DNA of 64,000 nt, taken from contig NZ_JARUMJ010000001.1 of assembly GCF_036898465.1 (NCBI RefSeq), forward strand, positions 1-64,000. Direction: 5' to 3'. Position numbers and translations under genes: made by a program. Source of the stretch: Streptomyces sp. B21-105. Lineage in GTDB: Bacteria > Actinomycetota > Actinomycetes > Streptomycetales > Streptomycetaceae. This document shows, piece by piece, positions 4,439-8,632 of this stretch. Positions within the stretch are counted from its first letter, which is position 1; each line of letters begins with the position of its first letter. Under the pieces are notes generated by a model. The model was not told the DNA's origin and made no database searches. It saw only the letters and a list, made by a program, of their open reading frames with translations.

Positions 4439-5338
4439 CTATGCGGCTTGGGCCAGGGTAGTTGATGTTGTGTCGAGTGCTGTCTCGTAGGCGATGGGAC
4501 TGCGTTGTCCGAGGCGGGAATGACGGCGTCGGGTGTTGTAGCGGTTGAGCCAGCGGAACGCGTCGAGACGGGCCTCGCGTTCGCTGGACCAGTGCTTTCG
4601 GCCCTGAAGCGTCTCGCGTTTGAACGTCGCGTTGAAGGACTCGGCGAGCGCGTTGTCCGCCGAGCTGCCGATCGCGCTCATGGACTGGCGGACGCCGGCC
4701 TGGCGGCAGGCGTCGGCGAAGGCCCGGCTGGTGTACTGGGCTCCGTGGTTGGTGTGCATGACCGCCCCGGAGAGGCTGCCGCGGGTCCGTTCGGCGGCGG
4801 ACAGGGCGTCGGTGACGAGGTCGGTGCGCATGTGGTCCGCGATCGCCCAGCCGGCCAGGCGGCGTGAGGCGAGGTCGATGACGGTGGCCAAATACAGGAA
4901 CTTCCCGCCGTCCAGCGGGAGATAGGTGATGTCACCGACGTACTTCGTGTTCGGCTCGCTTGCCGTGAAGTCGCGGCCGATGAGGTCCGGGGCCTTCGCC
5001 GCGGCCGGGTCCGCAACAGTGCTGCGGTGTCTGCGGCGCAAGCGCATGCCCGATAGACCGGCACCCCGCATCACCCGCGCGATCCGCTTGTGGTTGACGC
5101 GCTCGCCCGCCTCGCGGAGCTCGGCCGTGATTCTGGGGACGCCGTAGGCGCCGTCCGACTCGCGGTGCACGGCCCGTATCCGGGCGGCGAGGCGGGCGTC
5201 GGCCGCCTGCCGGGCGGCCCGGTCCGCGGCCGTCGCCCGCCAGTAGTAGAAGCTGGAGCGGGCGATGCCCAGGATGATGCACAGCCGCTTCACGCCGTAA
5301 CGGCGCTGATGGTCAGCGACGAACTGGAAGCGGTTCAC
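4439..5338 (-). CDS. IS3-family transposase OrfB (rve integrase core)
   Basis: A 299-residue IS3 OrfB. HTH_21 region about 40-100 (RIRAVHRESDGAYGVPRITA), then the rve core. Catalytic Asp in NTKYVGDITYLPLDGGKFLY, second Asp position in GAVMHTNHGAQYTSRAF (the usual HSDHG is HTNHG here, so the second catalytic Asp is replaced by Asn), and the Glu in SADNALAESFNATFKRE. The C-terminal RYNTRRRHSRLGQRSPIAYE is standard. The GTG start overlaps the end of orfA by four bases (GTGA), as expected for a programmed frameshift pair. With the Asp-to-Asn change and a broken orfA, transposition is doubtful. Confidence 0.85.
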   Translation of the reverse strand: MNRFQFVADHQRRYGVKRLCIILGIARSSFYYWRATAADRAARQAADARLAARIRAVHRESDGAYGVPRITAELREAGERVNHKRIARVMRGAGLSGMRLRRRHRSTVADPAAAKAPDLIGRDFTASEPNTKYVGDITYLPLDGGKFLYLATVIDLASRRLAGWAIADHMRTDLVTDALSAAERTRGSLSGAVMHTNHGAQYTSRAFADACRQAGVRQSMSAIGSSADNALAESFNATFKRETLQGRKHWSSEREARLDAFRWLNRYNTRRRHSRLGQRSPIAYETALDTTSTTLAQAA

Positions 5339-5635
5339 CAGCGCGTCTCCCCGGCGAAATACTTCGCCGCCTTCCGCAGGATCTCGCGCTCTTCCTCCAG
5401 CTCACGGACCTTCTTCCGCAGAGCGGCGTTCTCCGCCTCCAACAGCGTCGGCGGCTCGGTCGGCACCTCCGCCCGGCGCCCCCGGGGCCGGCTCGCACCG
5501 GCTGCCCGGACCCCGTTTGCGCAGGGTCTCGGGGTTGATCCCCAGATCGGCGGCGACCTGCCTGATCGTCGCCTCGGGCCGCGACTGGTACAGCGCGACC
5601 GCGTCCGCCTTGAACTGCGACGGATAGTTCTTCAT
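5335..5635 (-). pseudogene. IS3-family transposase OrfA, frameshifted
   Basis: It starts MKNYPSQFKADAVALYQSRP with the OrfA helix-turn-helix (ATIRQVAADLGINPETLRK). After LRK one extra base (AAACGGGG where family members read AACTGGG) shifts the frame. The original C-terminal leucine zipper (LEAENAALRKKVRELEEERE) can be read only in another frame, down to the stop at 5335. This gene normally supplies the DNA-binding half of the OrfAB fusion, so the copy is probably inactive. Confidence 0.78.
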
Positions 5636-5698
5636 GACCACGAGATGTCCGTTCTCAGATCCTCAGGATCAAGTGTCTCGTGTGTCCAGGATCAAGGG

Positions 5699-5833
5699 TC
5701 AAGGCCCGGCAATGCGGTCACCCGCCCGGCGTCGACCTCCGCCTTGGGAACGCTTCACCTCTGTAGGCGGCACAACGCGCCGGAACAGCACCCACAGCTC
5801 ATCCGGCACCAGCCGCTCAATCAAGTCAGCCAT
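5699..5833 (-). pseudogene. IS5-type transposase, N-terminal fragment
   Basis: Minus-strand reading gives 44 residues, beginning MADLIERLVPDELWVLFRRV and containing GGGRRRAGDR, the familiar N-terminus of Streptomyces IS5-family transposases. It ends at the junction with the IS3 element, so everything after residue 40 is missing. Too short to be functional. Confidence 0.7.
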
Positions 5834-5876
5834 GAACCGTAAACGACAAGCCGCCGCCATAAGAAACGATGTCTAA

Positions 5877-6741
5877 GACCGTGTCCTACGTGGTGAGGCG
5901 TCGTTGACCTCGGTATGGGGCGGGGTACGTGGAGTGGGATTGTTCCGGACGGGCTGTGGGAGATCGCGAAGCCGCTTATCCCGCCGTCGAGGGTGCGGCC
6001 GCAGGGCGGCGGAACGCAGGACACGCCTGATGAGACGCTGTTCGCGGCGATCATCTACGTGCTGGTCAGCGGATGTGCCTGGCGCCAACTACCGCCTTGC
6101 TTCGGCATATCGAAGTCGACCGCCCACCGCCGGTTCCTGATCTGGTCGAGAGCCGGCCTCTGGGGGCGGTTACACGAGGCCGTGCTGCACCGGCTCGACG
6201 ACGCCGGCCTTATCGACGTCACCCGCGTCCTCCTGGACACCGCTCACGTCCGGGCTAAAAAGGGGGCGAACACACAGGTCCGAGCCCCGTGGATCGGGGT
6301 AAGCCGGGTTCCAAGATGCACGTCCTGTCGGACGCGAACGGACTGCCCCTCCTCGTCGGCGTCTCGGCCGGCAACACCCACGACAGCGAAGGGCTGAAGC
6401 CCATGGTCGAGGGTCACCAAACGAGACACGACCCCCACCGCGGACGGTACTTCAAGCCCCAGCGCCTCCACGCGGACAAAGCCTACGACCGCGCCGACCT
6501 GCGGAAATGGTTACGTGGCAAACGCATCGGAGTACGGATCGCGCGCAAAGGCATCGAGTCCAGCGAACGATTGGGTCGCCGCCGCTGGGTCATCGAGCGG
6601 ACGATGTCCTGGCTGTCCGGCTACCGACGCCTGAGCCCTCGCTACGAGCGCGATCCCCGCAACTACCTGGCCTTTCTCGGACTGGCAGCCGCCCTGTGCT
6701 GCTACAAACGACTCGTCCGCCTCACCACGTAGGACACGGTC
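5877..6741 (+). mobile_element. IS5-family (IS427-like) insertion sequence with TAA target duplication
   Basis: The ends are perfect inverted repeats: GACCGTGTCCTACGTGGTGA at 5877 and its complement ending at 6741. Directly repeated TAA flanks it at 5874-5876 and 6742-6744, a typical 3-bp duplication. The 865-bp unit contains one transposase split by a frameshift. It has inserted at the TAA that also borders the next element to the right (6745-8583). Confidence 0.88.
5915..6732 (+). CDS. IS5-family (IS427-like) transposase, programmed -1 frameshift
   Basis: The first frame, from about 5915, has the DUF4096-type N-terminus (GIVPDGLWEIAKPLIPPSRV and TLFAAIIYVLVSGCAWRQLP) and the first catalytic Asp (VLLDTAHVRAKK). 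At 6257 the heptamer TAAAAAG followed by GGGG allows a -1 slip, which restores KKGGEHTGPSPVDRGKPGSK and the rest of the DDE domain (MHVLSDANGLPLLVGVSAGN, LHADKAYDRADLRKW, RRRWVIERTMSWLSGYRR). The fusion is about 272 residues, normal for the group. Frameshifting at this position is known in IS5/IS427 elements, so the gene may be functional. Confidence 0.82.
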
Positions 6742-6807
6742 TAAGAACTCCTAACGAAATGAGTAGCGGTGCTCGAGGCTTGGCGGAACCCGAGCAGCGC
6801 CACCCCC

Positions 6808-6833
6808 CATGTGCAACCAATCAGTTGCGCATG
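6808..6833. promoter_or_regulatory. Candidate ArsR operator upstream of the SRPBCC gene
   Basis: Arms CATGTGCAAC and GTTGCGCATG form a 10-bp inverted repeat with one mismatch around the spacer CAATCA. A related half site (ATGTGCAAC) recurs about 15 bases downstream. The position, 54 bases before the SRPBCC start, fits autoregulation by the ArsR protein of the same operon. This is inferred from symmetry only. Confidence 0.55.
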
Positions 6834-6886
6834 GGTTTCCAGATGTGCAACATTTGGGTAGCGCATCCGGATGAGATGAGGTTGCA

Positions 6887-7345
6887 ATGATCCCCAACAC
6901 GATCGAACGCGCCATCCTGATCAACGCCTCCAGGGAACGGGTCTGGTCCGTGCTGAGTGAGCCCGCTTTCCTCGGCCGCTGGTTCGGCAATGGAGAGCCG
7001 GTCAAGATCGACCTGCACCCCGGCGGTCTGCTGGTCTTCGACCACGGCATCCACGGCGTCATTCCCGCCCGTATCCAGACGGTCGAGCCGCCGCGCGTCC
7101 TGTCCTGGCGGTGGTCCCAAGGCGCCGCAGGCGAGGAGCCGGACGACTCCAACGCCACTCTCGTCGAGTTCACCCTGACCGAAGACGGCTCCACCGGAGG
7201 CACCCGGCTGACCATGGTCGAGAGCGGCTTCGCGCACCTCGGGCTGCCCACCGACGAGGCCACCGACCGGCATCGCGCCAACAGCCAGAACTGGCCCGGC
7301 AAGCTCGACCAACTGCGCGCGGCCTGCGAACAGACCACGGCATGA
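6887..7345 (+). CDS. SRPBCC / AHSA1-type domain protein
   Basis: A 152-residue single-domain protein of the START-like SRPBCC superfamily: ERAILINASRERVWSVLSEP and FLGRWFGNGEPVKIDLHPGG at the start, VEPPRVLSWRWSQG in the middle, and GGTRLTMVESGF before the long C-terminal helix (DRHRANSQNWPGKLDQLRAA). Such proteins have a deep hydrophobic pocket for a small ligand. Their stop codon often overlaps an ArsR gene, as here (ATGA). The pair may sense or handle a toxic hydrophobic compound, but the ligand cannot be read from sequence. It lies inside the IS5-like unit. Confidence 0.85.
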   Translation: MIPNTIERAILINASRERVWSVLSEPAFLGRWFGNGEPVKIDLHPGGLLVFDHGIHGVIPARIQTVEPPRVLSWRWSQGAAGEEPDDSNATLVEFTLTEDGSTGGTRLTMVESGFAHLGLPTDEATDRHRANSQNWPGKLDQLRAACEQTTA

Positions 7346-7686
7346 CCCGCACCACCGAGGGCGAACGGGCCCCCGAAGACGTCCTGGTGGCCCTGACCGA
7401 CCCGATCCGCCGAGAGATCCTGGCCGTCCTTGCCCGCGAAGGCGGCGCGACCTCGACGTCCCTCGCAGCAAGCCTCCCTGTCACCCGCCAGGCGGTGGCC
7501 AAGCATCTGGCCGTCCTCGACCGCGCCGGACTGGTGCGAGCCCACCGAGCCGGACGTGAGGTCCGCTACGAAGCCGACCTGCAACCACTGAGGCGGACGA
7601 CGCGATGGATGGACACCCTCGCCACCCAGTGGGAACACCGCCTCAACGTGATCAAGGATCTGGCGGAGGGGGTCACTGGCCCCTGA
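7342..7686 (+). CDS. ArsR-family winged-helix repressor
   Basis: 114 residues, starting at the ATG that overlaps the SRPBCC stop codon. The HTH_5/HTH_20 fold is clear: VALTDPIRREILAVLAREGG, recognition helix SLPVTRQAVAKHLAVLDRAG and beta-wing LVRAHRAGREVRYEADLQPL. No metal-binding ELCVCD motif is present, so it is a non-metal ArsR of the kind that usually pairs with SRPBCC proteins. The overlap implies translational coupling. It probably represses its own operon through the palindrome at 6808-6833. Confidence 0.87.
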   Translation: MTRTTEGERAPEDVLVALTDPIRREILAVLAREGGATSTSLAASLPVTRQAVAKHLAVLDRAGLVRAHRAGREVRYEADLQPLRRTTRWMDTLATQWEHRLNVIKDLAEGVTGP

Positions 7687-7696
7687 ACCTGCCGCC

Positions 7697-8534
7697 TCAA
7701 AGGCCCGTCGCAGTGCGGAGTCTTCTCCAGCAGATCAGTGCGCATCCCAGGGTGAGGAAGGCTTCGTGGATGTCGTCGCGGATCTCCCAACGGATCCGCA
7801 GGCGGCGGAACCAGTGCAGGTGGGCGAACGCGCGCTCGATGACCCAGCGTTGGGTGCCCAGGCCGGAGCCGTGCTCGGTGCCGCGGCGGGCGATCAGCGG
7901 CTTCACGCCGAGGTCCCAGACCAGGCGGCGGTACTTGTCGTGGTCGTAGCCGCGGTCGCCCAGCACTACATCCGGGCGGCGCCGGGGCCGGCCGCGCTTG
8001 CCCCGCACTGGCGGCACGGCTTGGAGGAGCGGGATCAGCTGGGTGACGTCGTTGCGGTTGCCGCCGGTCAGGGTGGCGGCGAGCGGGATGCCGGTGGCGT
8101 CGGTGATCAGGTGGTGTTTGCTGCCCGTCCTGCCCCGGTCGACGGGGCTTCGTCCCGTCTTGGACCCCCCTTTAATGCCCGGATGTGGGAGCCGTCGACG
8201 GCCGCCCGGGAGAAGTCCAGGGCGTTCGCGCCGCGCAGCTTGGCAAGGAGGACCTCGTGCAACCGGGGCCATACCCGGCCTCGGTCCACTCAGCCAGACG
8301 GCGCCAGCAGGTCATGCCCGAGCCGAAGCCGAGTTCCTGCGGCAGGTGTTCCCACGCGGTCCCCGTGTGCAGCACAAACAGGATGCCCTGGAACACCAGC
8401 CGATCTGGATGCCGCTTGCGCCCAGGATGCCGACTTCGGCGTTCCACCTTCGGCAACAGCGGCTCGATCACCGCCCACAGCTTGTCGTCGACCTCCCACG
8501 GCTTCGGCCGCGCCACCCCGCACCCCCAGATCAT
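7697..8534 (-). pseudogene. IS5-family transposase with an extra frameshift
   Basis: Read on the minus strand, the N-terminal frame (8534 to about 8275) has PWEVDDKLWAVIEPLLPKVE and GFGSGMTCWRRLAEWTEAG. A one-base deletion near 8272 (GGCCGGGTATGG) then breaks the frame. VWPRLHEVLLAKLRGANALD follows in a second frame. At GGTCC after AAAGGGG (about 8168) the element's normal programmed shift leads to SKTGRSPVDRGRTGSKHHLI and the DDE C-terminus (RYDHDKYRR-like block, QRWVIERAFAHLHWFRRLRI). The first shift is not programmed, so this copy is probably dead while its cargo genes remain intact. Confidence 0.8.
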
Positions 8535-8632
8535 CAGTCCGGGAGTGATCCAACCACCTCGAAGATCATTTCGTTAGGAGTTCTAAGGACCAATGGAAGG
8601 CTGGCACGCAGCGGCCCGACTAGGTTGAGCGC

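Follow-up and report, generated by a model that had tools for sequence, protein, structure and literature searches.

The window, the whole 64-kb stretch of DNA analysed here, which forms the start of its contig, contains a 1839-bp IS5-type element at positions 6745-8583. The element is delimited by perfect 18-bp terminal inverted repeats, with the sequence GAACTCCTAACGAAATGA at its left, distal end (6745..6762, + strand) and the exact inverse at its right, transposase-proximal end (8566..8583, - strand). A TAA target duplication flanks it on the left (6742..6744) and on the right (8584..8586). Two cargo genes are found on the + strand. The first (6887..7345) is intact and codes for an SRPBCC protein of 152 residues with a Pfam match to AHSA1 (E 2.6e-17). 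The second (7342..7686) codes for an ArsR-type winged-helix regulator of 114 residues that matches HTH_20 and HTH_5, and its start overlaps the end of the SRPBCC gene by 4 nt. Padloc yielded only generic HTH matches for ArsR and no match for the other five proteins analysed.

The sequence-only reading had described perfect 18-bp ends, TAA at both sides, an IS5-type transposase and two cargo genes within one unit devoid of an inner end repeat, and our analyses confirmed this description. We scanned the 64-kb window for the 17-base core of the end, allowing up to 3 mismatches. The only matches are the two element ends (shuffle control: mean of 0.02 matches, and two matches in 0 of 100 shuffles), and no second, inner end was found near 7690. 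The stretch 6745-8583 is one element, with the cargo between its ends.

The transposase matches DUF4096 (E 1.1e-23) and DDE_Tnp_1 (E 5.4e-20). It is coded on the - strand by an upstream DUF4096 ORF that ends early in this copy (8172..8534) and a downstream DDE_Tnp_1 ORF (7697..8272). A slip motif, AAAGGGGGG, lies at positions 411-419 of the transposase strand (8165..8173, - strand). In a survey of 59 elements, 48 belong to the same subgroup, and the other 11, from other subgroups, are devoid of the motif. An A/G slip motif is present at positions 395-413 of the transposase strand in 47 of the 48 subgroup elements, and a two-ORF -1 arrangement in 30 of the 48; the window copy has the motif and lacks the arrangement. 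Judging from these sequences, the split into two overlapping ORFs is in part a regular trait of the family, and the transposase would be made by a -1 slip between them. Compared with the Streptomyces sp. MMG1121 element, that of the window lacks one base in its upstream ORF and therefore carries a real lesion besides the programmed slip, for which reason its transposase is probably inactive. Intact-looking transposase copies exist in other elements.

A second IS5-like element, of 865 bp with perfect 24-bp ends and TAA at both sides, directly abuts the first (5877-6741), and the left TAA of the cargo element is common to both. This neighbour harbours a AAAAAGGGGG slip motif at 6257. This IS end also forms the left flank of two other elements, L060 (identical over 22 bp) and L065 (one mismatch), and landing at that IS end thus recurs. 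The region is crowded with IS: inspection by eye revealed an IS3-like transposase pair at 4439-5641, and ~5740-5875 appears to be a remnant of another IS5 transposase.

Movement of the element in related genomes

The full element was searched against 392 genomes of the genus, including that of the window, and the figures given here are drawn from the matches listed. Most of these matches covered the transposase only, which gave the first impression of a short IS. Scanning the transposase matches for the 18-bp end placed the second end at very different distances. Sixty high-ranking loci were fetched, and both ends were found in 50 of them, which makes 51 elements with that of the window (the loci without both ends are L035, L051, L069, L084, L086, L087, L089 and L091-L093). 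The genome of the window itself, of 9.2 Mb, has one full copy of the window element.

The sequence-only reading had proposed to look for the SRPBCC-arsR pair flanked by the same ends elsewhere. It is present between such ends in Streptomyces sp. MMG1121, S. olivochromogenes and genome G292, and twice in genome G253. Matching TTA or TAA triplets flank the full SRPBCC-ArsR elements L097, L099, L038 (= L104), L036 and L037. The two G253 copies (L036 and L037) show no difference over their 1837 bp; their flanks are only 30-34% alike, and one lies in TTA/TTA, the other in TAA/TAA. Genome G258 similarly harbours identical copies at two sites (L063 and L064), with another passenger. The same 3 bp are present at both sides of 38 of the 51 elements and not in the remaining 13; the count becomes 33/46 without two exact duplicates and three elements whose left end was accepted partly for this match.

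Empty sites had also been suggested as a check. For the S. olivochromogenes insertion, the joined flanks are unbroken in G370 (88%) and G236 (80%), with a single CTTAG, i.e. one TTA, at the junction. No empty site was found for the window copy among 41 genomes searched, because another IS borders it on the left, and the DNA on its right occurs in other genomes only as scraps of 29-41 bp. The evidence of movement for the window copy itself is thus TAA/TAA only.

The matching duplications, the identical two-site copies and the empty site show that SRPBCC-ArsR and the transposase move as one unit in relatives. The transposase would act on both 18-bp ends, so that everything between them would move, and the unit would land at C-TWA-G sites with a 3-bp duplication, as the relatives that moved did. 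The cargo might instead be ordinary chromosomal DNA lying between two IS ends, such as those of the abutting IS and of a normal short IS; the element does abut another IS with a TAA in common, and passenger-free relatives of 888 bp exist. However, no inner end is found near 7690, and the whole unit occurs elsewhere with matching duplications, as identical two-site copies and with the empty site of a relative. In view of the identical G253 copies and the relative's empty site, we reject chance placement between two IS as very unlikely.

Passengers between the ends

Among 47 relatives with both ends, picked by transposase similarity, 40 carry a passenger and 7 are passenger-free (34 and 7, respectively, of the 41 that remain after removal of near-duplicates). 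Relatives ending right after the transposase had been named as an observation that would count against cargo. These 7 elements do so, but the finding is not fatal to the idea, since the other 40 hold a passenger in the slot. IS with passengers are uncommon among IS elements in general. The earlier statement to that effect thus stands for IS at large; it does not apply to the family studied here.

The slot contains 13 kinds of passengers including SRPBCC-ArsR, or none. The kinds were grouped by DNA similarity and took their names from one or two representatives of each, except that the three members of the DUF5959 kind were united by Pfam and tblastn rather than by DNA. They comprise DUF2750, DUF4265, DUF5959 and DUF218 proteins, a pentapeptide protein, a membrane-type protein whose pentapeptide match is weak and sub-threshold, VOC/glyoxalase proteins, methyltransferases, an F420-type reductase with an HxlR regulator and a TetR regulator with an SDR protein. 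The last two kinds are the orphan families p111 and p134, which have 160 and 271 relatives, respectively; the best 120 relatives of each are mostly hypothetical proteins of Streptomyces and Kitasatospora. L053 harbours an additional lectin gene, and L068 an additional gene that matches HAD weakly and below threshold, as well as a further transposase, identified by eye. L118 and L126, of another subgroup, carry a phosphotransferase (APH) family gene. The slot DNA of L045 and L082 is of the DUF2750 kind, with no long ORF passing our filter. In L041/L042, the element lies centrally between the two 22-bp arms of a perfect inverted repeat, which looks terminator-like by eye.

Eleven further genomes yielded seven elements with both ends and four without the left end. 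Known kinds of passengers are present in six of the seven resolvable loci, and only three of the seven have identical 3-bp flanks. Searching plasmid records with the transposase part gave 501 records with some match, 224 of them from Streptomyces. Six plasmid loci were examined: five have a passenger (DUF2750 twice, p134, and DUF5959 twice), one is a passenger-free 888-bp form, and matching 3-bp sides were found in five of the six. The annotation of all six reads 'IS5 family transposase', and in the five with a passenger it lists the passengers as separate genes. The same DUF2750 passenger accession is found on two plasmids of Streptomyces sp. SAT1 (L159 and L163), with unrelated flanks.

We determined where the similarity between elements ends using 17 representatives across the passenger kinds. 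Identity per 30-column bin is 0.81-0.96 up to the last transposase codons, with the exception of the first bin (0.78) and of one gapped bin (0.34), and the values for the bins after these codons are 0.17, 0.42 and 0.14. Four of the seven passenger-free forms (L040, L048, L088 and L090) have their transposase stop within the distal end. Passengers thus replace the transposase tail and the end that overlaps it. Passenger-free forms are 876-907 bp long, and elements with cargo reach 2.8 kb. We regard the stretch between the 3' end of the transposase and the distal end as a slot in which one content has repeatedly given way to another. In such a replacement, the end overlapping the transposase stop would be lost, and transposition would use a farther end, taking along the genes between.

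Two loci provide hints of this capture route. The far end of L059 repeats the transposase-side end over 33 of 34 bases, and L117 has an outer end resembling the transposase side 3298 bp away, with TAA at both sides. Both fit capture via a second copy of the end, and elements of this sort may represent composites that have collapsed. The far end of the window element resembles the transposase side over the 18-bp repeat alone.

The SRPBCC-ArsR operon and its carriers

An operator-like palindrome, TGTGCAACC-N4-AGTTGCGCA, lies ahead of the SRPBCC gene (6810..6831, + strand), and its core is kept in IS-borne and chromosomal copies alike. A second, imperfect one is located 34 nt downstream of the first (6844..6865, + strand). 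In an alignment of 19 loci, the palindrome core columns ahead of SRPBCC are at least 90% kept. The passenger is predicted to be a self-contained operon in which ArsR would occupy the two palindromes upstream of the SRPBCC gene until some signal releases it. We found no literature on SRPBCC-ArsR operons, judging by title and abstract.

The palindrome pattern occurs in the window only ahead of SRPBCC, and a pattern search of the window did not find it at the transposase promoter. This bears on the view that ArsR and SRPBCC take part in transposition, ArsR as a regulator of the transposase, and are not a cargo that serves the host. Although the operon accompanies the transposase in each of six full elements, that view is at odds with the lack of a palindrome at the transposase promoter, with the 47 sister elements, 40 of which have unrelated passengers and 7 none, and with the persistence of the operon where no transposase was found (L102 and others). 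We thus regard a role in transposition as very unlikely and retain the reading of the pair as cargo.

SRPBCC searches identified 13 named relatives, all of them Streptomyces. Of 20 distinct cargo loci, five are full elements (L036 also standing for its identical copy), five lack the right end but retain the left one together with some or most of the transposase, two have the left end only, and eight have no detectable end. SRPBCC is full length (151-152 codons) at 19 of the 20. In a midpoint-rooted cargo tree, the IS-linked copies and two end-less ones (L089 and L101) form one 99/97 clade, and six end-less copies lie at the base. Rows L093, L102 and L107 of this tree rest mainly on SRPBCC, because overlong ArsR frames were chosen there. 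A single cargo clade of the five full IS rows was rejected by the AU test (p 0.0009), which we read as remnants and the two end-less copies being nested among full elements, not as proof of separate captures.

Occurrence of the pair without the ends was the second observation held to count against cargo. It applies to the eight end-less loci: the six basal ones are placed as a chromosomal source would be, and L089 and L101, inside the IS-linked clade, are read as decayed copies. The simplest reading of the tree would be that a chromosomal operon was picked up by the IS, spread with it and was sometimes left behind. The end-less copies L091, L103 and L105 have ~90% identical upstream DNA in common, and the operon of L091 lies ~800 bases farther from that DNA than those of L103 and L105. 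Overall, the cargo idea is supported, having survived both of these partly realized objections.

The intact cargo beside a frameshifted transposase had been taken as a hint of selection. That argument is weaker than proposed, because part of the frameshift is programmed, but the hint itself receives support from dN/dS values near 0.2. The median is 0.23 for SRPBCC (range 0.13-0.44, 55 pairs) and 0.20 for ArsR (range 0.12-0.52, 45 pairs, the ArsR of L102 being left out). The window copy would be one whose transposase is decaying while its cargo is still intact.

We also investigated the associations between passengers and transposases. On a transposase tree of 51 rows, the 14 passenger states need 22 changes, compared with 36.1 in shuffles. 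One-clade AU tests on this first tree rejected DUF4265 (p 0.0007) and did not reject p111 (p 0.20), p134 (0.066), DUF2750 (0.43) or DUF5959 (0.18). For SRPBCC-ArsR, p was 0.44 before sister rows were added, and one clade was rejected (p 7e-49) after addition of eight passenger-free sister rows; the result therefore depends on the sampling of the sister subgroup. The sister rows come from 20 fetched loci, of which eight have usable passenger-free ends (including L117, with mismatched flanks), two carry the phosphotransferase gene and ten, with unclear ends, were left out. In the tree with the sister rows, the transposases of L036-L038 are placed among 899-bp passenger-free elements. By this tree-based criterion, the SRPBCC-ArsR operon is borne by two transposase lineages.

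Alternatively, a single capture might underlie each kind of passenger, which would then have diverged together with its transposase, and poor tree resolution would mimic swapping. The clustering of passenger labels on the tree, the absence of rejection for four of six kinds and for SRPBCC-ArsR before the sister rows, and bootstraps that had not settled are all compatible with this. However, one clade is rejected for SRPBCC-ArsR and DUF4265. Furthermore, between the window element and L097 there are 8 substitutions in 849 transposase columns, 14 in 459 of SRPBCC and 24 in 345 of ArsR; a cargo more substituted than its transposase is odd for strict co-inheritance. Single capture is thus unlikely, though less so than the alternatives discussed above, and we favour exchange of passengers between transposase lineages.

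Place of the element among known systems

The window element is a real transporter IS of the IS5 family; the concept is known, and the modularity of this element's family is unusual. The DUF4096/DDE_Tnp_1-type DDE transposase and the short inverted repeats (18 bp) with a short target duplication (TAA or TTA) are those of the IS5 family. Passengers unrelated to transposition lie between the ends, and joint movement was found in relatives, with TAA/TAA only for the window copy. IS elements are usually treated as carrying their own transposase only. Transporter IS (tIS) are IS with passenger genes unrelated to transposition, and our elements resemble them in that one transposase and two short ends enclose passengers, which may be regulators (PMC3129680, PMC9330008, PMC5009743). 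They differ in the number of passenger kinds, at least 13 within one transposase subgroup and the lineage sister to it, in the 40/47 proportion with a passenger and in the presence of one operon on two transposase lineages. What is unusual is how densely a single IS5 subgroup is loaded with passengers and how readily these turn over, and our searches of the open-licence literature revealed no description of a comparable modular IS5-family passenger carrier.

A 3-bp TNA target repeat is the pattern of the IS1031 group, and the empty-site comparison revealed a 3-bp TTA duplication. IS427-group elements have a DDE transposase coded by two overlapping ORFs with a frameshift motif, and short ends; the members described are 832-865 bp long, with 2-bp repeats in 10 of 11 (PMC3281130). 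Our subgroup shares the overlapping ORFs with a slip motif (the window copy having the motif only), the short ends and passenger-free forms of a similar size, 876-907 bp. In contrast to what is described for that group, it has 3-bp TWA duplications rather than mostly 2-bp ones and reaches 2.8 kb with cargo.

Composite transposons also have genes between two IS-type ends, but here there is one IS copy only, with one transposase of its kind and one end pair, and a composite transposon with two full IS copies was discarded. Integron cassettes are different genes exchanged at a fixed position beside a recombination gene; the likeness is one of analogy only, and no integrase gene was detected in the element.

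Taken together, the data make it very probable that the element is a tIS of the IS5 family whose slip-made transposase moves all that lies between its ends, namely a self-contained operon in a repeatedly replaced slot. With somewhat better than even confidence, we propose that this IS5 subgroup is a minimal cassette carrier in Streptomyces, consisting of a ~870-bp transposase module with a fixed slot after the transposase stop. The slot would capture small operons, many of unclear role (p111 and p134 being orphan), which would pass from one transposase lineage to another and spread to chromosomes and plasmids alike; the host would then retain them while the transposase degenerates. If the subgroup routinely carries and swaps passengers, it would represent a gene-sharing route in Streptomyces, and element boundaries would reveal by sequence alone which small genes are moved and kept. 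With passenger-free forms of 888 and 899 bp existing beside forms with passengers, how an IS gains cargo becomes directly testable.
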